Assembly: GCA_005893305.1 (NCBI GenBank) | Contig: VBOZ01000036.1 | Coordinates: 1 to 57,751, forward strand | Reading direction: 5' to 3' | Origin: Candidatus Eisenbacteria bacterium | GTDB lineage: Bacteria; Eisenbacteria; RBG-16-71-46; SZUA-252 | DNA: 57,751 bases | In this document: positions 9,591-51,712 of the stretch, piece after piece | Position numbering within the stretch: position 1 is the stretch's first letter | Layout: the number at the start of each line of letters is the position of its first letter | Program-made: the position numbers and the translations under genes | Notes under the pieces: generated by a model | Database searches by the model: none | Seen by the model: only the letters and a program-made list of their open reading frames with translations | What the model was told of the DNA's origin: nothing

Positions 9591-10363
9591 GGCTCGCCTT
9601 CCGGCTGATCGGAGCGGAGCATCCCGCGCTCGAGGCGGATCGCCCGCCCGGGGTGTCGCCGCACCCAGTCCTCCGCGTGCGTCGCGACCGCGACCAGCGT
9701 GCCGCGCCGGCCGATTTCCCGGAGGAGGGCGAAGATCTGTCCCGCGGCGGCCGGATCGAGATTCCCGGTCGGCTCGTCGGCGATCAGGATCCTCGGATGG
9801 CGCGCCATCGCGCGCGCGAGGGCGACGCGCTGCTTCTCGCCGGCCGAGAGGTCCTCGGGAAAGAGCGTCTCCTTCCCTCGGATCCCCATCTCGTCCAGGA
9901 GCGGCGTGATCCGTTCGCGAATCCGGGACCGATCCCAGATGCCCGAGATCTGGCAGGCCAGCGCGATGTTCTCGTAAACGCTTCGATCGCCGAGGAGGCG
10001 AAACTCCTGGCCGAGAACCCCGACGAGGCGCCGGACGCGGCGGAGCGGCACGCGCTTCGGGGATCGCCGCCGAGCGGGCGCTTCAGGCGACTCGCCGTCC
10101 CCATCGCCGACGGGGGCCTCCGGAGCCTCCGGTACCGGGCTCGGCGCGGTCTTAGGGGAGGAGATCGCATCGGGGTCCACCTCGACGCGGCCCTGGCTCG
10201 GCTTCTCCGCGAGCGCCAGCAGGCGGAGCAGGGTCGATTTTCCCGCCCCGCTCGGTCCGAGGACGAACACCCACTCGCCCGGATCGAAGGAGAGCGTGAC
10301 GTCGCTCAAGGCGATCCGATCGCCGAAGCTCTTGCTCACGTTCTCGAGACGGATCAGGGCCAT
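9587..10363 (-). CDS. ftsE: Cell division ATP-binding protein FtsE with an internal insertion
   Basis: ABC-type ATPase partner of FtsX. Walker A is GPSGAGKST at about residue 37, the Q-loop reads GVLGQEFRLL, the signature is LSAGEKQRVALARA (Ala in place of the usual second Gly), Walker B is ILIADEPTGNLD and the switch His is in VATHAEDW. At 258 residues it is about 30 longer than typical FtsE because a Pro/Ala/Glu-rich segment of roughly 40 residues replaces the short loop between the beta-strands after Walker A and the RR motif. The start at 10363 (MALIRLENVSKSFG) matches the family N-terminus and overlaps pdxA by 10 bases. Confidence 0.9.
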   Translation of the reverse strand: MALIRLENVSKSFGDRIALSDVTLSFDPGEWVFVLGPSGAGKSTLLRLLALAEKPSQGRVEVDPDAISSPKTAPSPVPEAPEAPVGDGDGESPEAPARRRSPKRVPLRRVRRLVGVLGQEFRLLGDRSVYENIALACQISGIWDRSRIRERITPLLDEMGIRGKETLFPEDLSAGEKQRVALARAMARHPRILIADEPTGNLDPAAAGQIFALLREIGRRGTLVAVATHAEDWVRRHPGRAIRLERGMLRSDQPEGEP

Positions 10364-42408: not shown

Positions 42409-45400
42409 CTACGCGGCTTCAGACGCCTCGCCCGCAACCGCCACCTCAGGTACCTCCTCACGCGCGGCCGCCCGCGCGTGCGCTCCCGCGACGAGCATGT
42501 AGACCGCCGGCACGACGAAGAGCGTGAAGAACGTGCCGATCACCATGCCGCTCACGAGCGTGATGCCGATGCTGTTCCGTGCGCCGGCCCCCGGCCCGTG
42601 TGCGAACACCAAGGGTAGATGACCGAATACCGTCGCCGCGGTCGTCATCAAGATCGGCCGCAGCCGGGTCCCCGCGGCATCGATGACCGCCGCCAATTTC
42701 TCCACACCGGTCTCGCGAAGGTGATTCGCGAACTGGACGATGAGGATCCCGTTCTTCGCGACCAGCCCGACCAGCGTGATGAGGCCGACCTGGCTATAGA
42801 TGTTCATCGTCGTGAAGCCGAGGAACGAGAAGAGCAGTGCGCCGCTGATGGCGAGCGGAGCCGAGCCCGCAAGGATGACGAAGGGATCGCGGAAGCTCTC
42901 GAACTGGGCCGCGAGCACCAGGAAGATCAGGACCGCGGAGAGCAGGAAGATGCCGAGGAACCGGCTGCCTTCCGTGCGGAGCTGGCGGGACTCGCCCGCG
43001 TAGTCGACCGTGAAGCCCTGGGGCAGTATCGACTTGGCCTCGCTTTCCAATACTTGAAGCGCCTGGTCCAGCGACACCCCCGGCGGGACGACGCCTTGGA
43101 TCCGCACGGCGTTGAGCTGCTGGAACCGCTTCAGCTCCCGCGGCTCCGTCGTGGTCTCGAGGGTCGCGAAGGTCGAGAGCGGCACGAGCCGGCCGCCGGT
43201 CCCGGTGACGTAGATGTCCTTGAGCTGGTCGGTCGTCAGGCGCTCGCTCCGCTTTACTTGGGGAATCACCTTGTAGCTCCGACCCTGGATGCTGAATCGA
43301 TTGACGTAGTTTCCGCCGAGAAGCGTCGAGAGGTCCTTGCCCGCCTCGCTCATCTCGACCCCCTGGGAGCGGACCTTGTCGCGGTTGAACACGACCCTCG
43401 CCTGGGGCTGGTCGAATTTGAGATCCGCGTCGGCGAACATGAACATGCCGCTCGCGAACGCCTTTCCGACGAGCTTGTTGGCGAACTCCACGAGCTGCTC
43501 CGGCTCGGCCGTCGAGGCGACCACGAAATCGACCGGGAAATCGCCGCCCCCGGGCAGTGCCGGCGGGATCAAGGAGATGACCCGGATTCCCGGAATCTTC
43601 GAGAGACCCATCGAGGCCTCGACCTGGAGCTGCTGGGCCGTCTTCTTCCGATCGCTCCAGGGCTTGGTGACCATGCCCCCGAAGCCGCCGGTCGGGAAAG
43701 CCAGCTGGAACGTGTTCTTGTACTCGGGGAACTTACGATAGACGCCCTCGACCTGCGCCGAGTAGAGCTTGGTCTGGTCGAGCGTCGAGTTCGGCGCGGC
43801 CTGAATGATTCCAAAGACCACGCTCTGGTCCTCGCTCGGCGCCAGCTCGTGCATCGAGAACATGTAGAAGGGGATGATCAACGCGACGACGACCGCCCAT
43901 GCGACATAGACCGCGGGCCTGTACTCGAGCGTCCGGGTGAGTGCCCCCTTGTAGGCCTCCCGCACGCCGTCGAAGCGCCGGTTGATCCACCCCGCGAAGC
44001 CGCGCTCATTGTCGCCGGCGCGGAGCAGCTTCGATCCCAGCATCGGGGAGAGCGTCAGGGCCACGATCCCTGAAATGATGACCGCCCCCGCGAGCGTGAA
44101 CGCGAACTCGCGGAACAGCGACCCCGTGAGACCGCCCTGGATCGCGACGGGGGTATAGACCGCCGCCAGCGTGAGCGTCATGGCGATGATCGGGCCGATC
44201 AGCTCGCGCGCCGCTTCGATCGCCGCTCGGAACGGCGTCACGCCCATGCGCAAATGTCGCTCCACGTTCTCGACCATCACGATCGCGTCGTCGACCACGA
44301 GCCCCACCGAGAGCACGATCGCGAGCAGGGTGAGCAGGTTGATCGTGAACCCGGCCACCATCATCATGAAGACCGCGCCGATCAGCGAGATCGGAATCGC
44401 GACGACCGGGATGATCACGGCGCGCACCGACCCTAGGAAGAGGAAGATGACGAGAATCACGATGAGCAGCGTCTCCGTGAGGGTCTTCAAGACCTCGCGG
44501 ATGGCGCTCTCGATGTACTCGGTCGAGTCGTAGGGGACCCCGGCCTTCATTCCGACCGGCAGCTGCGCCTCGATGGCGGGCAACGCCGCACGGACGCGCC
44601 CGATCACCTCGAGCGTGTTGGCTGTGGGGAGCACCCAGATTCCCATGAAGACCGCGCCCTGGCCGTCGAAGCGGACGTCCTGCTCGTAGTTCTCGGCGCC
44701 CAGCACGACATCGGCGATGTCGCCGAGGCGAACGACGGTGCCCTTGTCCTGCTTCACGACCAAGCGGCGGAACTCGTCGGCCGTCTTGAGGTCGGTGTTC
44801 GCGACCAGGTTCACCGAGACCATCGACCCTTTCGTCTGGCCCAGCGTGGAGAGATAGTTGTTGTCGGCCAGCGCGTCGTGCACCTGCGACGCCGAGATGC
44901 CCATCGCCGCCATCTTCTCGGGCTTCAGCCACACGCGCATCGCGAAGGTGCGGCCGCCGAGGATGTCCGCGCGCTGCACGCCGTCGATCGCGCTCAGCTT
45001 TGGCTGCACGACCCGCATCAGGTAGTCGGTGATCTGGTTCTGGTCGAGATCCTTGGAAGAGAAGCCGAGGTACATCGCCGCGAACCGGTTGTCCGCGGTC
45101 GCCAGCTCGATGACCGGCGCCTGTGCCTCCGGCGGCAGGTCGTTCCGCACCTGCGCCACCTTGGCCTGGACCTGGGTGAGCGCCGCGTTCGTGTCGTAGT
45201 TGAGCTTCAGGTGCACGGTGATCGTGCTCACGCCCTGGGCGCTTGACGACTCGATGTAGTCGATGCCGTCGGCGCTCGCGATCACCCGCTCCAGCGGCGT
45301 CGTGATGAACCCGCGCACCAGGTCGGCGTTCGCGCCGACGTAGGTCGTCGTCACCGTGAGGATCGCGATGTCGCTCCGCGGATACTGCCGGACGCTGAGC

Positions 45401-45492
45401 GATCGGATCGACTGGAGCCCGGCGATCAGGATGACCAGGCTCACGACCATCGCGAGAACTGGTCGCCGGATGAATAGATCGGTGAATTTCAT
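42409..45492 (-). CDS. RND efflux transporter, AcrB/HAE1 type
   Basis: A 1027-residue inner-membrane pump subunit. It starts KFTDLFIRRPVLAMVVSLV, typical of HAE1 pumps. Twelve TM helices are arranged in two blocks, and TM4 carries LSVGLVVDDAIVMVENVERH with the Asp pair of the proton relay. The two large periplasmic loops and the second-half TM repeat near residue 860-1000 (LVGLVAKNGILIVQFAN) are complete. It is coupled (TGATG) to the membrane-fusion gene and is the last gene of the pump operon. Sequence type (MdtB/MexK-like) suggests drug or hydrophobic-compound export. Confidence 0.93.
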   Translation of the reverse strand: MKFTDLFIRRPVLAMVVSLVILIAGLQSIRSLSVRQYPRSDIAILTVTTTYVGANADLVRGFITTPLERVIASADGIDYIESSSAQGVSTITVHLKLNYDTNAALTQVQAKVAQVRNDLPPEAQAPVIELATADNRFAAMYLGFSSKDLDQNQITDYLMRVVQPKLSAIDGVQRADILGGRTFAMRVWLKPEKMAAMGISASQVHDALADNNYLSTLGQTKGSMVSVNLVANTDLKTADEFRRLVVKQDKGTVVRLGDIADVVLGAENYEQDVRFDGQGAVFMGIWVLPTANTLEVIGRVRAALPAIEAQLPVGMKAGVPYDSTEYIESAIREVLKTLTETLLIVILVIFLFLGSVRAVIIPVVAIPISLIGAVFMMMVAGFTINLLTLLAIVLSVGLVVDDAIVMVENVERHLRMGVTPFRAAIEAARELIGPIIAMTLTLAAVYTPVAIQGGLTGSLFREFAFTLAGAVIISGIVALTLSPMLGSKLLRAGDNERGFAGWINRRFDGVREAYKGALTRTLEYRPAVYVAWAVVVALIIPFYMFSMHELAPSEDQSVVFGIIQAAPNSTLDQTKLYSAQVEGVYRKFPEYKNTFQLAFPTGGFGGMVTKPWSDRKKTAQQLQVEASMGLSKIPGIRVISLIPPALPGGGDFPVDFVVASTAEPEQLVEFANKLVGKAFASGMFMFADADLKFDQPQARVVFNRDKVRSQGVEMSEAGKDLSTLLGGNYVNRFSIQGRSYKVIPQVKRSERLTTDQLKDIYVTGTGGRLVPLSTFATLETTTEPRELKRFQQLNAVRIQGVVPPGVSLDQALQVLESEAKSILPQGFTVDYAGESRQLRTEGSRFLGIFLLSAVLIFLVLAAQFESFRDPFVILAGSAPLAISGALLFSFLGFTTMNIYSQVGLITLVGLVAKNGILIVQFANHLRETGVEKLAAVIDAAGTRLRPILMTTAATVFGHLPLVFAHGPGAGARNSIGITLVSGMVIGTFFTLFVVPAVYMLVAGAHARAAAREEVPEVAVAGEASEAA

Positions 45493-46548
45493 CAGCTGTC
45501 CTCCGGCTTCGGCGCGGGATTGTTACCCGGCCGGATCTGGTTGTTCACGAGGACGGACGCTCCGTTTCGAAGCTTGAAGACGCCCGAGGTCACGACTTCC
45601 TCCCCCGCCTTCAATCCGGATACGATCGCGACCTGGTCGCCCCGGTTTCCGCCCAGCTTCACGAAGCGCTGCTCGACGCCGCGGTACGACTTGCCGTTTG
45701 GACCCTTGAGGTCGGTCACGACGAAGATCGAGTTCCCGTACGGCGCGTAGCTGACGGCCGTGGCCGGGAAGCCTCCCGTCCGGATTCCGGAATATCGCCT
45801 GGATCTGGACGTTTCGGGTCGCCTCGTCGACCACCGAATTGATGGCGGTGACCTTGCCCGACGGGATGACCGCGAGGCTCTCCGCCGCCACCATCACCGA
45901 CGCGCCCACCTTCAAATCGCCCAGCTCCTGCTGCGGCACGGAGAAGTTAACGTAGACCGGATCCAGCGACTGGAGCGGCACGACCGGATCGCCGCCCTTC
46001 AAGTACTGGCCCAGGTTGATCTGGCGAATGCCCAGGACCCCGGTGAACGGCGCCCGGATCTGTTTCCGGTCGATGATCGCGCGGATCTCGCTCGCGCGGG
46101 CTTCTGCCGATTTGAACTCGGCCGAGGACCGATCGAACTCCGCCTGCGAGGCAACCTCCTTCTCGAGCAGGTGGCTGATGCGCTCGAGGTTGAGTCGGGC
46201 GAGCTCACGCTGTGCGTCCGCGGCGGCCAGCTGCGCTTGCTCCTGGCTCACGTCGAGACTCACCAGCACCTCTCCCGCCTGCACGCTCCTGCCGGATTCG
46301 AACGCGATCTTCTCGACGATGCCGGGCAGGTCCGCGCTCACCGTGACGCCTTGAACCGCGGCGACACTACCGATGACGCTGGTGGTCGCCGGCCATTGTT
46401 CCTGACGCGCGGCGATCGTGGTAACCGCCTCGGGAGGCGGCGACCAGGTCTGCGCCATGGCCGCATGGATCTGCTGGAACTTCACGAAACCCAGGCCGGC
46501 GACGAGCACGGCCAACGCTGAGACCACGATAATCATTCGCTTGTTCAT
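45492..46548 (-). pseudogene. Membrane-fusion (periplasmic adaptor) protein, frameshifted
   Basis: From the ATG at 46548 the frame encodes a membrane anchor (MIIVVSALAVLVAGLGFVKF), barrel and lipoyl segments (VTVSADLPGIVEKIAFESG), a coiled-coil hairpin and beta-barrel up to IFRNPDGRLP near 45770, then runs into unrelated Arg-rich sequence. The proper C-terminus (ATAVSYAPYGNSIFVVTD onward, to 45492) continues in another frame. Around the switch the usual RPGMF-type strand of adaptors is missing, so about 15-18 residues were deleted together with the frame shift. As written the adaptor should not work. Real lesion or assembly error cannot be told apart here. Confidence 0.85.
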
Positions 46549-46558
46549 GATTTCCTCC

Positions 46559-48127
46559 CTATCGCCTTGTTCCGTTGACGTTGATGCCGCGTTCTTCGAT
46601 CAACGACCCGGTGGCGCGCCCCATTTCCGCGCGCGCCATCCGGTAGTCGGTAAGAGCCGAGATCTCATCGAGCCGGGCTCGGGACAGATCGTTCTGGCGC
46701 GTCAGCACCAGGAAATTCGTGGAGAGGCCGGTCTCGTACCGGTCCTTTTCAGCGGAGAGCTGAACCTCGGCCGCCTCGCGCCCCGCGCGGGACGACTCGA
46801 TCCTTTGACCCGCGGTCTCCAGCGCGGACGCGGCGTCGAGGACCTCCGCGCGGATCGCCTTCCGCACGCGCACCAAGTCCGCCTCGGCCTGCCGCTCGAC
46901 GTGGCGGGCGATGTCGGCCTCCGCGCGCGCCGTGCGGTTCCGTATCGGAAGGCTCAGTACCAGCGCCACCCGGGCCGCGTCGAAGTCGCCGTCGCCGAGC
47001 GATTGGAACGACTGCGCGAGGGCCCCGTCGAGATTCGAGGGGAGCGGGCCGGCCGGACCCGCAGGGTTCCGCGAGCCCGCGAGCCCAAAGCGGTCGTACG
47101 AAGCGACCGCGTCGAGCGCCGGCCAAACCCCGCTGCGCGCGAACGACGTCTCGGCGTGACGGCGCTCCACGACGGCCCGCGCCGCGCCCAGCTCCGGCCG
47201 CGCCGCGAGCGCGCGCTGCAACGATGCCGCGACGTCGACCGGGGTCACCTCGACCGCAGCGCTGTCGGCGGGAGCGATCTCGGAGAGCCACATCGACTCG
47301 TCGGTATCCTCGAGGATCAGGAGCTTGAGGTCGTTCTCGGCGCGGGCGGTCGTTTCGCGCGCGGCCAAGAGCTCGCTCCGCCGACGCTCCAGCTCCGCGC
47401 GCGGCTGAGCCACCTCGGTTCCAGGCACCGCGCCCGTCTGCACGCGCGTGCGCGTCTCATTCAATTGCTCCTCCGCGAGGCGCACCGCTTCCTCGCGAAC
47501 GCCTACGCCGAGCCGGGCGGCGGTGAGGGCCCAGTAGGCCTGCTCCACCGCCGCGACCGTTTCCGTCAGCGTGCGCCGAAGGGACGCGTCGGCTTGCCGA
47601 CGACCCGCCTTCGCGACACGCACAGAGAGTCGCGCCCCGTCGATCGCCCGATCGCGCAGAAGGGGCTGCCTCAACTCGACGCCGACCCGGGTGCTGTAGG
47701 CCGGGGAGAGCCGCGCAAAGCTTCCCTCGGTCTTATCCCGCGCGGCCCGCCCCCGCAGGGATAGCGCGCCGCCGGTGGGAAGGAGCTGGTGAAGCGTGAC
47801 GCCGCCCTCAGCCGTGCTGGCCTCGGGGGCGATCTGGTTGGGCAGGGTGCCCGAGAACGAAGAGTTCAATGGCTCGTTCGACCTCGACCATCCTCCGTCC
47901 AGCTCCGCCACCGGATCGTAGGCGCCGCTCGCGCTGCTCACGGCCGCCTTGGCCGCGGCGAACGACTCGCGCTCGATCAGGAGCCCCTCGTTCTTCTGCA
48001 GAGCCAGGTTGATCGCCTCGTCCAGGGTCATGCGGTGCTCGGCGCCGAACGCGGGGGCCGCCGACAAGGCGAACGCCATCAGTAGCGGCGCCAGCGCGAC
48101 GATTCGTTTCGACTTCCCAAGATTCAT
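46559..48127 (-). CDS. TolC-family outer-membrane efflux protein
   Basis: A 522-residue protein with a signal peptide (ALAPLLMAFALSAAPAFG) and the two TolC repeats: MTLDEAINLALQKNEGLL at the start of the first and VDVAASLQRALAARPELGAARAVVE at the second, with long helical hairpins between strand segments. It forms the outer-membrane duct of a tripartite pump with the adaptor and RND protein encoded next. ATG overlaps the stop of the small upstream gene as ATGA. Confidence 0.9.
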   Translation of the reverse strand: MNLGKSKRIVALAPLLMAFALSAAPAFGAEHRMTLDEAINLALQKNEGLLIERESFAAAKAAVSSASGAYDPVAELDGGWSRSNEPLNSSFSGTLPNQIAPEASTAEGGVTLHQLLPTGGALSLRGRAARDKTEGSFARLSPAYSTRVGVELRQPLLRDRAIDGARLSVRVAKAGRRQADASLRRTLTETVAAVEQAYWALTAARLGVGVREEAVRLAEEQLNETRTRVQTGAVPGTEVAQPRAELERRRSELLAARETTARAENDLKLLILEDTDESMWLSEIAPADSAAVEVTPVDVAASLQRALAARPELGAARAVVERRHAETSFARSGVWPALDAVASYDRFGLAGSRNPAGPAGPLPSNLDGALAQSFQSLGDGDFDAARVALVLSLPIRNRTARAEADIARHVERQAEADLVRVRKAIRAEVLDAASALETAGQRIESSRAGREAAEVQLSAEKDRYETGLSTNFLVLTRQNDLSRARLDEISALTDYRMARAEMGRATGSLIEERGINVNGTRR

Positions 48128-48390: not shown

Positions 48391-48407
48391 CTCAAGAGAC
48401 GTGCCAA
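48391..48407 (-). promoter_or_regulatory. Sigma54 (-24/-12) promoter of the pump operon
   Basis: On the minus strand TTGGCACGTCTCTTGAG: the TGGCACG -24 box is exact, GG and the -12 G are 10 bases apart, and the -12 reads TTGA instead of TTGC. The transcript would start near 48381, about 18 bases ahead of the first gene. Confidence 0.7.
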
Positions 48408-48473
48408 GTCGTGAGGCGTCGGCGAAAGAGCGTGATTCCCATGTGCGCGTGGAGCTTGACGTCACGCGCGTAA

Positions 48474-48531
48474 GTCGAACGAGACGGACGGGCTTCGACG
48501 TGTATGTAGATAAATCGACAGAACGTCGATT
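48474..48531. promoter_or_regulatory. Candidate upstream activator sites of the sigma54 pump promoter
   Basis: Two dyads lie 95-150 bases upstream of the predicted start. One is AATCGAC-AGAAC-GTCGATT (48513-48531), with perfect 7-base arms. The other is GTCGAA (48474-48479) facing TTCGAC (48494-48499). All arms share the TCGA core. Position and symmetry fit binding of a Fis-type HTH dimer such as the activator encoded at 49568-51712. Confidence 0.5.
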
Positions 48532-48597
48532 GGCGGGCGGGACCGACCGCTTCCTCCAGATCACGCGGGGGACCGAGCGTTTCGACCCGAAACGGGC

Positions 48598-48624
48598 GAC
48601 GCCGGGCTTTTTGGGCCCGGCGTC
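48598..48624 (-). terminator. Strong hairpin after the outer-membrane protein gene
   Basis: GACGCCGGGC and GCCCGGCGTC form a perfect 10-base stem with a 7-base loop, 46 bases beyond the stop of the gene at 48670-49305. There is no T-run after the stem on either strand, so it is a hairpin-only terminator or an RNA-stability element. Confidence 0.5.
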
Positions 48625-48669
48625 TGAGGGGGGTATGGGCGGGACTGTGTTGCGGGGTGCTCGAGGAAA

Positions 48670-49305
48670 CTAGAACCGATACAGGAGACCTACGGTGCCG
48701 CGCTCCATCCAGATATTGTCCGCGCCCTTGGAAGTCGAGAGCCCGGTGGAGTTGTTGGACGGGAACGCGACCAGCTCACGTACATCGGCGCGCACGCCCC
48801 AGCGGTCATTCAGTCCATAGGACACGCCTCCGCCGAAGTTGATCGCGAACGCGGTCTCGGACTTCGAGAGCTGAGGGACCCGATCTGGATCGGTGTTCGA
48901 CAGGAACGTGACCGCGCCCGCTCCGGCCGCCAGGTACGGCGTCAAATTGGATACCGGGAAATCGGCGCGCAGATTGGCCTGGTACGCGAGAATATCGGCA
49001 GACTTCTTGTCCTGGGACACACCCGATCCAAGATCGACGCTCTGCTTGACCGGGATCAGCCACGTGAACTCTCCTTCAGCGGCCAACCTCGACGTCATGC
49101 GGTACGACACGGTCGCGACAGCCGGGACGTTGACGAAGTGGTCCGGCAACGAGGTGTCATTCTTGTTCAGAGCCTGGACCCCGCCCATGAGCGAGAGCTC
49201 GGCCCGGGACTCCCCCGCCGCGGCGGACGAAACGGCGCCGGCGACGAGGAACGCGGCAACTGCTACGGCACTGGCGAAACGGATGCTCCCTTTACTGGTC
49301 TTCAT
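48670..49305 (-). CDS. Outer-membrane beta-barrel protein, about 211 residues
   Basis: Signal peptide (FASAVAVAAFLVAGAVSSAAAG), then strands such as VATVSYRMTSRLAAEGEFTW and LTPYLAAGAGAVTF, and the ending GTVGLLYRF with terminal Phe. The layout is that of small 8-stranded OmpA/OmpW-like barrels. The ATG at 49305 has GGGGAGG seven bases upstream. It has its own sigma54-type promoter at 49400-49416, matching that of the pump operon, so it may be co-induced with the pump. Confidence 0.82.
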   Translation of the reverse strand: MKTSKGSIRFASAVAVAAFLVAGAVSSAAAGESRAELSLMGGVQALNKNDTSLPDHFVNVPAVATVSYRMTSRLAAEGEFTWLIPVKQSVDLGSGVSQDKKSADILAYQANLRADFPVSNLTPYLAAGAGAVTFLSNTDPDRVPQLSKSETAFAINFGGGVSYGLNDRWGVRADVRELVAFPSNNSTGLSTSKGADNIWMERGTVGLLYRF

Positions 49306-49399
49306 GGCATTCCTCCCCAGAGGGGTTTGCGGCGGCGCGGCGCCGGGGCGCCGTTTGCGTCGGGCGGGCCGCCCGCCGCTTCCTCTGGTCATGCGTTAC

Positions 49400-49416
49400 A
49401 TCAAGCAACATGCCAA
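49400..49416 (-). promoter_or_regulatory. Sigma54 (-24/-12) promoter of the outer-membrane protein gene
   Basis: On the minus strand TTGGCATGTTGCTTGAT, identical at 13 of 17 positions to the pump-operon promoter, including the unusual TTGA -12 box and the 10-base GG-to-G spacing. The transcript would start near 49390, leaving a leader of about 85 bases. Confidence 0.62.
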
Positions 49417-49513
49417 TGGAGCGATCGGGACGCGAGTCGGCCGATACTCTTTGCGCTCGTGGAAGTTGTGCTGCTTAAGACGAGGCGGTGAAGTTTCGGG
49501 GAGGTTTCTTGGA

Positions 49514-49552
49514 GTTGCCGAGAGATCAGCAGGCTGTCGATTTCTCGGCAAC
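49514..49552. promoter_or_regulatory. Long inverted repeat with the shared activator 10-mer
   Basis: GTTGCCGAGA (49514-49523) and TCTCGGCAAC (49543-49552) are perfect 10-base arms with a 19-base spacer. The spacer and right arm contain CTGTCGATTT (49534-49543), the reverse of AAATCGACAG found at 48512-48521. It is centred about 145 bases upstream of the predicted start of the outer-membrane protein transcript, an enhancer-like distance. It is also 16 bases after the stop of the activator gene, so a terminator role is possible, though no T-run follows. Confidence 0.5.
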
Positions 49553-49567
49553 CGCCGAGCAACGCAG

Positions 49568-51712
49568 CTACTGAACTCCGTACTTCTCGATGCGGGAATA
49601 GAGCTGGGCGCGTGTCAACCCCAGTAGACGGGCGGCCCTGGACTTGTTGCCCTTGGCCTGACCCAGAGCCTTCTCCACCAGGTCGCGCTCCACGTCCTCG
49701 AGGTTCATGCCGTCCGAAGGGATCCCGCCGTCCGAGATACTGCTGATCTTCACGGGCCTCCCACCATCCGACACCGGCGAGGCAAGGACCCTCAACGCTC
49801 CGTATGTCGGGCGAGACACTGCGGCCGGAAGATGGTCGCGCGTGATGAGACCACCGTCGGACATCAAGATCGCCCGCTCGATCGCGTTCCGGAGCTCGCG
49901 AACGTTTCCGGGCCAGCGGTAGCCCAGCAACCAACCGCGAGCATCCTTCGAGATTCCCGCCGCGGGCCGTCCCATCGTCCTGCCCAGGTCCTCGAGGAAC
50001 GCCTCGGCGAGAGGCAAGATATCCTCGGAGCGTTCCCGGAGCGGCGCGATGTGGATCTGGAACACGTTCAGGCGGTAGTAGAGGTCCTCCCGGAACGTTT
50101 GATTCGCGATGGCCGCCGTCAGATCGCGGTTCGTGGCCGCGATCACCCGCACGTCGGCCTTCAACGTGCGGGACCCACCCACGCGCTGGAACTCACGCTG
50201 CTCCAACACGCGAAGGAACTTCGCCTGCACGATCGGGCTCATCTCGGCGATTTCATCGAGGAACAACGTTCCCCCCGCCGCCTGCTCCATCCGTCCGATC
50301 TTCGTGGCGATCGCCCCGGTGAACGCTCCCTTCTCGTGACCGAACAACTCGGACTCGAGCAGGGTCTCGGGGAGCGCCGCGCAGTTGATCGCGACGAACG
50401 GCTTGCCCGAACGCGGCGAGCCTTGGTGGATGAGGCTCGAGATCACTTCCTTGCCGGTCCCGGACTCGCCGGTGATGAGCACGGTGGTTTCCGAGGCCGT
50501 CACCCGCTGGGCTGCCCTCAATGTTTCCTTCCATGAAGGCGATATCCCAATGACGCGGCCGCCTCCGCGGGACTCCAGCTCTCGCGCGAGTGTTTCGACC
50601 GTGGCTTCGAGCCGCTCCGCCCGCTCCCGCGCTTCCGCGGCGACCCGGGCTTCATCCGAGAGCCGCAGGTGGGACAGCATCAAGGCGACGCGGTCCGCGA
50701 GACGGATCGCGACCTCGGTGTCCTCCCAGGTGTAACGCGACGGCTCGCGATGGAAGAAGCTGAGGCCGCCTTGGACCTGCCCTGAAATCCAGACCGGGAC
50801 CCGGAGCCAAGACCGCATGCCCGAGGAGATAATGAGGCGATGGCGCTCCGTGTCGGGCGGGATCTCGGCCGGGATGTCTTTGATGATCTCGGACGCATTT
50901 CGCCGCGCGAGCTCGGCGTCGGTAAGAGGGACTGCCGCCGTCGGCGCCGGGTTGTCGGTCTTGCCCGCGATCGCGGAGATGCGGATCGTCTTCGCGCCCA
51001 TGTCCAATTCGGTCAGGCACATCATGTCATGCGGCAGGATGGCCTTCATGCCGTCGGAAAGCGGCTCGAATACCTCGCGCACGTCGAGCGACTGGGCCAG
51101 CATCCCCAGCAACGCCTCGATCCGGTCGAGCCGGTCCCTGCGACGCTGCTCGATATCCCAGAGCTTCCAGTGCTCGACCGCCGATCCAAGCAACGCCGCG
51201 ATCGGCTTGAGAACCTCCTGGTGCTCGTCGGTGAACGCGTTCGTCGTTTGCGAGGACAGCCAGACGCCCCCGGCGAACGTGTTCCCGGCCCGGAACGGTT
51301 CCCACATGCCGGATCCCATTCCCCCTTCGAGCGCCGTCGCGTCTAGCGGAAATGAAGGATCGAGCTCCTTCCTGGCGTCGTTGATCCGAGGGGTGGGGCC
51401 CGCGTGCGGACGCATCCTCGGCGACCACATGGTCACCGGCATGGGATCGGAGCTTTTCGCGTCCGAGCATTTCGGCCCCGAGCACGTTCCATCCGGCTTT
51501 GGCTGCGTGAAGGTGACGGCGTGGAGGACCACGTGCGAGCCGTCGATGATCCGGACCACGCCCATCTTATAGAAGGGAATGACCCGCTGGACGGCTGTGC
51601 CCACGCGGTCGAAGACCTCGCGGAGCTCGATCGTCTCCGACGCGATCTCGGCGATCTCGGAGAGAACGCCGGTTACCAACTGAGCATCAATGGGAGCGGC
51701 TGTGAGGCCCAT
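49568..51712 (-). CDS. Sigma54-dependent activator, GAF-GAF-AAA+-Fis
   Basis: A 714-residue bacterial enhancer-binding protein. Two GAF-like sensor domains occupy about residues 1-180 and 200-360. The AAA+ module has Walker A GESGTGKEVIS, the sigma54 loop GAFTGA, Walker B LFLDEIAEM and the sensor RVIAATNRDL. The C-terminal Fis-type HTH (NKSRAARLLGLTRAQLYSRIEKYG) ends the protein. No receiver domain is present, so the signal is probably a ligand or redox cue sensed by the GAF domains. Its neighbours downstream carry two sigma54 promoters and likely are its targets. Confidence 0.92.
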   Translation of the reverse strand: MGLTAAPIDAQLVTGVLSEIAEIASETIELREVFDRVGTAVQRVIPFYKMGVVRIIDGSHVVLHAVTFTQPKPDGTCSGPKCSDAKSSDPMPVTMWSPRMRPHAGPTPRINDARKELDPSFPLDATALEGGMGSGMWEPFRAGNTFAGGVWLSSQTTNAFTDEHQEVLKPIAALLGSAVEHWKLWDIEQRRRDRLDRIEALLGMLAQSLDVREVFEPLSDGMKAILPHDMMCLTELDMGAKTIRISAIAGKTDNPAPTAAVPLTDAELARRNASEIIKDIPAEIPPDTERHRLIISSGMRSWLRVPVWISGQVQGGLSFFHREPSRYTWEDTEVAIRLADRVALMLSHLRLSDEARVAAEARERAERLEATVETLARELESRGGGRVIGISPSWKETLRAAQRVTASETTVLITGESGTGKEVISSLIHQGSPRSGKPFVAINCAALPETLLESELFGHEKGAFTGAIATKIGRMEQAAGGTLFLDEIAEMSPIVQAKFLRVLEQREFQRVGGSRTLKADVRVIAATNRDLTAAIANQTFREDLYYRLNVFQIHIAPLRERSEDILPLAEAFLEDLGRTMGRPAAGISKDARGWLLGYRWPGNVRELRNAIERAILMSDGGLITRDHLPAAVSRPTYGALRVLASPVSDGGRPVKISSISDGGIPSDGMNLEDVERDLVEKALGQAKGNKSRAARLLGLTRAQLYSRIEKYGVQ

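Follow-up and report, generated by a model that had tools for sequence, protein, structure and literature searches.

Tripartite efflux pumps of the AcrAB-TolC and MexAB-OprM type are regulated by a TetR/MarR-type repressor. NifA, an activator of sigma54 promoters, recognizes a box of the form TGT-N10-ACA. Enhancers located 100-150 bp upstream, with DNA looping helped by IHF or HU, are standard for sigma54-dependent transcription (PMC7057263, PMC4641369). In Desulfovibrio, the regulons of one-component enhancer-binding proteins combine inverted-repeat enhancers with the sigma54 consensus tGGcacg/tTGCt, and their targets concern the bacterial exterior (PMC4641369). Sigma54 promoters that differ only at -11 or -12 have been described where a species carries rpoN in two copies (PMC3162934). 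The founding protein of the Os1348 family, from Pseudomonas sp. Os17, is a helical dimer (PDB 6lk7) whose loss lowers antibiotic activity and whose cellular level is higher in a mutant of a neighbouring RND pump gene (PMC7726476).

Here we analysed an Eisenbacteria locus that brings elements of these systems together. The window is the whole stretch of DNA under study (VBOZ01000036.1, positions 1-57,751), and the genome to which it belongs comprises 2,746,291 bases (2.75 Mb). Our literature search found no paper joining Eisenbacteria and sigma-54.

Promoters, activator and predicted target genes in the window

Two sigma54 -24/-12 promoters had been predicted on the minus strand, and both 17-mers were found exactly where they had been placed: P1 (TTGGCACGTCTCTTGAG, 48407-48391), predicted to drive the pump operon, and P2 (TTGGCATGTTGCTTGAT, 49416-49400), predicted to drive the barrel gene. 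Re-counting gave the same 13 identical positions out of 17. In P1 and P2 alike, 10 bases separate the GG from the -12 G, and the -12 element reads TTGA instead of TTGC, again as originally described. Both sites lie in intergenic DNA. With the +1 placed 12 nt after the -12 base, transcripts are predicted to start at about 48380 and 49389, which leaves leaders of ~17 nt for the Os1348-type gene and ~84 nt for the barrel gene.

The uniqueness of the sites was examined by pattern searches of the whole genome and by matrix ranking in the window. TTGGCAYGNNNCTTGA gave two exact matches genome-wide, P1 and P2 only. An approximate sigma54 matrix placed P1 and P2 in the top two ranks among all positions of the window, on either strand, with scores of 16.7 and 14.8 (next 13.2). 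A looser search, allowing up to 3 mismatches to the 17-mer, was uninformative, with 21 matches versus 16 expected from shuffled DNA. At this threshold the sites are no commoner than in shuffled DNA, as one would expect if the matching 17-mers were products of chance or non-promoter repeats. However, exact matches occur at P1 and P2 only and the sites are kept in 10 genomes together with an enhancer at a fixed distance (see below), which leaves such a reading with next to no credibility.

The genome encodes the matching sigma factor: the search for rpoN returned one copy (E 6e-62), and the helix-turn-helix and RpoN box of its product closely match solved sigma54 sequences. In the phylum, rpoN is present in all 26 good-quality genomes. 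Directly upstream of the barrel gene, Pfam confirmed the GAF-GAF-AAA+-Fis activator gene of the original prediction (51712-49568, minus strand), a bacterial enhancer-binding protein with two GAF domains, a Sigma54_activat domain with GAFTGA (PF00158, 238 bits), an AAA lid and a Fis-type HTH_8 domain (PF02954, 52 bits). The GAFTGA loop is invariant. No invariant cysteines, which would hint at metal or redox sensing, were found in GAF1. NifA was considered as an identity for the activator and rejected (TIGR01817, 389.5 bits, under the cut-off of 528.85).

P2 precedes a gene for a small outer-membrane beta-barrel protein of the OMP_b-brl family (49305-48670, minus strand; PF13505, E 7.7e-16), which is likewise found ahead of the pump operon in 7 relatives. 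On its 3' side we detected a hairpin (48598-48624, minus strand) with a 10-bp perfect stem (-22.5 kcal/mol, z -4.8), and similar hairpins are visible in most relatives. It is probably the transcript end that divides the barrel and pump units. Since this strong hairpin stands between the barrel gene and P1, two promoters are needed.

The pump operon predicted behind P1 was recovered with respect to its TolC, adaptor and RND permease genes, but its first gene is not tolC: an Os1348-type gene (48363-48124, minus strand), unseen in the earlier reading, comes first. It overlaps by 4 bp with the gene of a TolC-family outer-membrane efflux protein (46559-48127, minus strand; PF02321, E 6e-47), followed by an RND periplasmic adaptor (MFP; 45495-46548, minus strand; TIGR01730) and an AcrB/MexB-like RND permease of the HAE1 type (42409-45492, minus strand; PF00873, 867 bits; solved MexB/AcrB relatives at E ~1e-158). 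That is, the RND (HAE1) tripartite set of AcrB-like permease, HlyD-type adaptor and TolC-type channel is complete, with the adaptor frame broken in this assembly. The break lies between 45763 and 45806, as judged from the intact relatives of 373-375 aa in four other loci (L021-L024); either the assembly is wrong here or the frameshift is genuine.

Conservation, enhancers and spacing

The cassette of activator, barrel, Os1348-type, TolC, adaptor and RND genes recurs in this order, with variations, in 10 of the 47 Eisenbacteria genomes. An Os1348-type gene scored above the cut-off in 10 of the 47, and an ortholog of the activator's GAF half (59-74% identity) was detected in nine of those 10, namely the own genome plus 8 more; in the tenth, G036, the contig starts inside the barrel gene. 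Two loci (L021 and L029) are without the barrel gene and one (L027) is without TolC. In G043, the activator is encoded on a different contig (C55, L162) from the cassette (C57, L023), and both promoters and enhancers are kept, an arrangement that fits action in trans. Outside the phylum, a scan of genome contigs with strict patterns matched only Eisenbacteria, and plasmids gave no match.

All 17 readable regions upstream of barrel genes and pump operons in the cassette loci contain the -24/-12 site, with GGCA and TTG invariant. Their -24 element and spacing agree with the sigma54 consensus (GG/GC doublets 10 bases apart, TGGCAYG, TTGC), but the -12 doublet is GA and not GC in 16 of the 17 sites, despite a search matrix that penalised A at this position. 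Apart from this doublet, the sites match the consensus in full. Another two positions, which the usual consensus does not include, are conserved as well: a C preceding TTGA (15/17) and a T three bases past the A (15/17). GA at -12 as a habit of the whole genome was rejected: six -24/-12-like sites by other activators of the own genome, a small sample with several not proven promoters, carry C (5) or T (1) and never A. On these small numbers, GA at -12 looks like a trait of this regulon and not of the genome. Canonical strong -24/-12 sites (ATGGCACGACGGTTGCC, ATGGCACAGACGTTGCT and TTGGCACGCGGGATGCA, at L111, L120 and L128) were also seen in intergenic DNA of the own genome close to other activators and probably belong to separate sigma54 regulons.

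Upstream of both promoters we found a palindrome unnoticed in the original prediction, with the consensus ATCGACAG-N-CTGTCGAT. Counted from the -24 G to the palindrome centre, the putative enhancer of P2 (49524-49542; AATCGACAGCCTGCTGATC on the minus strand) lies 120 bp upstream, and that of P1 (48513-48531; AATCGACGTTCTGTCGATT on the minus strand) 118 bp upstream. In 14 of the 17 regions, each scored with matrices trained only on other genomes, the top-scoring palindrome position lies at a distance of 118-121 bp, measured from the second -24 G, and is far above the runner-up. None of 500 dinucleotide shuffles reached the score of the window's two enhancers, and the own genome holds only 4 places with at most 2 mismatches to the enhancer consensus, including the enhancers of P1 and P2. 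The barrel enhancer is itself enclosed by a 39-nt imperfect palindrome (GTTGCCGAGA...TCTCGGCAAC, 49514-49552) directly 3' of the activator gene, which may double as the transcript end of that gene.

We then combined promoter, 105-115 bases and half palindrome into a composite pattern. It has exactly two occurrences in the own genome, which makes a two-promoter regulon likely; a larger regulon was rejected for want of a third site. Across the 47 genomes the pattern matched 18 times (13 matches inside cassettes), versus 2 times for a backward-read control. One match in another genome (G040, C55:22680), by a different activator, is without a good palindrome and was set aside.

The distance between enhancer and promoter is constrained and the intervening sequence is not. 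From the enhancer to a second conserved block (below), identity is at the level of shuffled DNA (0.32-0.34 versus 0.31). The distances on either side vary across the loci, from ~31 to 347 between the -24 G and the start codon and from 28 to 171 between the upstream stop and the enhancer centre. Exceptions to the standard distance are the pump enhancers of L024 (4450-4638, at 110 bp) and L025 (4600-4833, at ~108 bp). Their alignment requires single gaps of 10 and 11 bases, about one helical turn, which fits a face-of-helix constraint in these two cases only. In L027, no clear enhancer was seen at the standard distance.

The second conserved block, approximately CAACTCC..CG.GCGCA and weaker than the enhancer, was likewise missed in the first reading. 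In 14 of the 17 regions its start lies 56-57 bp from the -24 G on the upstream side; this test is slightly circular, since the seed consensus was picked by eye from all regions, with scoring matrices taken from other genomes. In the window, the upstream distance from the -24 G to the start of this middle block is 57 bp for P2 (CACAACTTCCACGAGCGCAA, 49451-49470, minus strand) and 56 bp for P1 (GTCAAGCTCCACGCGCACAT, 48441-48460, minus strand). The block is a possible site for DNA bending or for a second regulator. Since the genome has three HU/IHF-family genes, a bending protein at the middle block is plausible. G040, a genome without the cassette, also has a GTGGCACGTTGATTGAG site (C55, L154/L160, ~9681-9810) that is accompanied, at a comparable distance, by a CAACTCC block, with a different sigma54 activator nearby.

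The pairing of activator and enhancers is based on adjacency, co-occurrence and the form of the palindrome. Genuine sigma54 promoters whose palindrome is bound by a regulator other than the GAF neighbour, be it another activator or a repressor, could be imagined in a genome with ~18 further full sigma54-activator genes, and the middle block possibly reflects the binding of more than one protein. However, an ortholog of the activator accompanies the cassette in 9 of 9 genomes (leaving aside G036, with its truncated contig) and is normally adjacent, and at -142 to -144 the palindromes lie where activator enhancers usually do (100-150 bp upstream, PMC7057263). We consider binding by another regulator improbable.

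The small sigma54 regulon of the original prediction is thus upheld by the single rpoN, the retention of both sites in 10 genomes, the enhancer at fixed distance and the two composite sites. Most likely, the locus forms a sigma54 regulon of two promoters under the adjacent GAF-GAF-AAA+-Fis activator, with the barrel gene and the pump co-induced.

The Os1348-type protein of the pump operon

The first gene of the pump operon encodes a 79 aa protein of the Os1348 family in the NHLP clan (NF038399, 60.2 bits, cut-off 40). Membership of this family raises the question of a cryptic RiPP system, in which the gene would encode a precursor peptide exported by the RND pump, in place of small-molecule efflux. 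The ties of the Os17 protein to antibiotic activity and the rise of its level in an RND pump mutant point in the same direction (PMC7726476). A RiPP precursor combines a conserved leader and a variable core with modification enzymes encoded nearby, and the Os1348-type gene deviates from this scheme. In the 10 genomes conservation extends as far as residue 73, and the protein has no variable core. Pfam and family profiles revealed no modification enzyme among the operon genes examined, and an abhydrolase encoded 3' of the pump is not conserved among relatives. In addition, RND pumps are not known to export peptide precursors. A RiPP system is unlikely on these grounds.

Structure prediction yielded a fold of moderate confidence (pLDDT 75). 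Its best PDB match, 6lk7, is weak (E 0.41), and RiPP-precursor chains are also weak matches. Since the operon genes examined include no modification enzyme, the protein lacks a variable core and the gene comes first in an RND operon, an accessory or regulatory function is more likely than that of a RiPP precursor. Poorly understood small proteins of the Os1348/NHLP type are hereby placed inside an RND pump operon, which narrows their possible roles.

Proposed mechanism and comparison with known systems

The sequence itself shows promoters with enhancers at fixed spacing, their conservation, the gene content and the single rpoN, and from these we infer how the regulon could work. The activator (49568-51712), in this reading a one-component protein, would bind ATCGACAG-N-CTGTCGAT via its Fis-type helix-turn-helix at the two enhancers, each centred ~142-144 bp upstream of the predicted transcript start. 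The stretch from enhancer to promoter would loop, probably aided by an HU/IHF-type protein on the middle block, and the loop would bring the activator into contact with the sigma54 polymerase. A signal received via the GAF domains would trigger ATP hydrolysis by the activator, and the complex of sigma54 and polymerase would be opened at P2 and P1. P2 would then yield the barrel protein, and P1 the Os1348-type protein, TolC, the adaptor and the RND pump. Since the activator would open both promoters, barrel and pump would be made together, from two transcripts split by the hairpin. The purpose may be the export of, or protection from, a compound that the GAF domains detect directly or indirectly; that one compound is both sensed and exported is a natural guess.

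A more far-reaching proposal is tentative and, taken as a whole, rather doubtful. It holds that the enhancer geometry is fixed, with a dedicated activator that acts solely from a single DNA face near -143 and a second protein at the middle block, that the GA-type -12 element and its flanks (C before TTGA, GAT after) form a separately selected promoter subclass which insulates the regulon under a single sigma54, and that the co-transcribed Os1348-type protein serves an RND pump as a new accessory subunit or is its cargo.

The locus offers a sigma54 regulon open to experiment from an uncultured soil phylum. Its enhancer distance is near-invariant even though the DNA from the enhancer to the middle block is at shuffled-level identity, and so provides a natural test of the strictness required for looping by an activator.

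With NifA/NtrC-type regulation the locus shares a -24/-12 promoter, a GAF-AAA+-Fis activator with GAFTGA and a palindromic enhancer more than 100 bp upstream, as well as a conserved block between enhancer and promoter as the possible seat of an IHF/HU-type protein. It differs in the palindrome itself (ATCGACAG-N-CTGTCGAT), the near-invariant enhancer distance, GA instead of GC at -12, and a pump and a barrel protein as target. Inverted-repeat enhancers by sigma54 promoters and targets at the bacterial exterior are features in common with the Desulfovibrio regulons (PMC4641369). There, however, enhancers are located from <100 to >300 bp upstream or even downstream (PMC4641369), compared to 118-121 bp here. 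The species with promoters differing only at -11 or -12 have two rpoN copies (PMC3162934), whereas the Eisenbacteria genome has one.

An NF038399 small protein adjoining an RND pump is shared with the Pseudomonas sp. Os17 cluster, where the pump is EmhABC (PMC7726476). In Os17, pump and small protein are encoded on opposing strands, the cluster includes modification enzymes and GacA exerts control (PMC7726476); in our locus the Os1348-type gene is the first of the pump operon, none of those enzymes was seen and control would be by sigma54. Finally, AcrAB-TolC and MexAB-OprM have the same set of permease, adaptor and TolC, from which the present operon is set apart by its predicted sigma54-activator control and its Os1348-type first gene.
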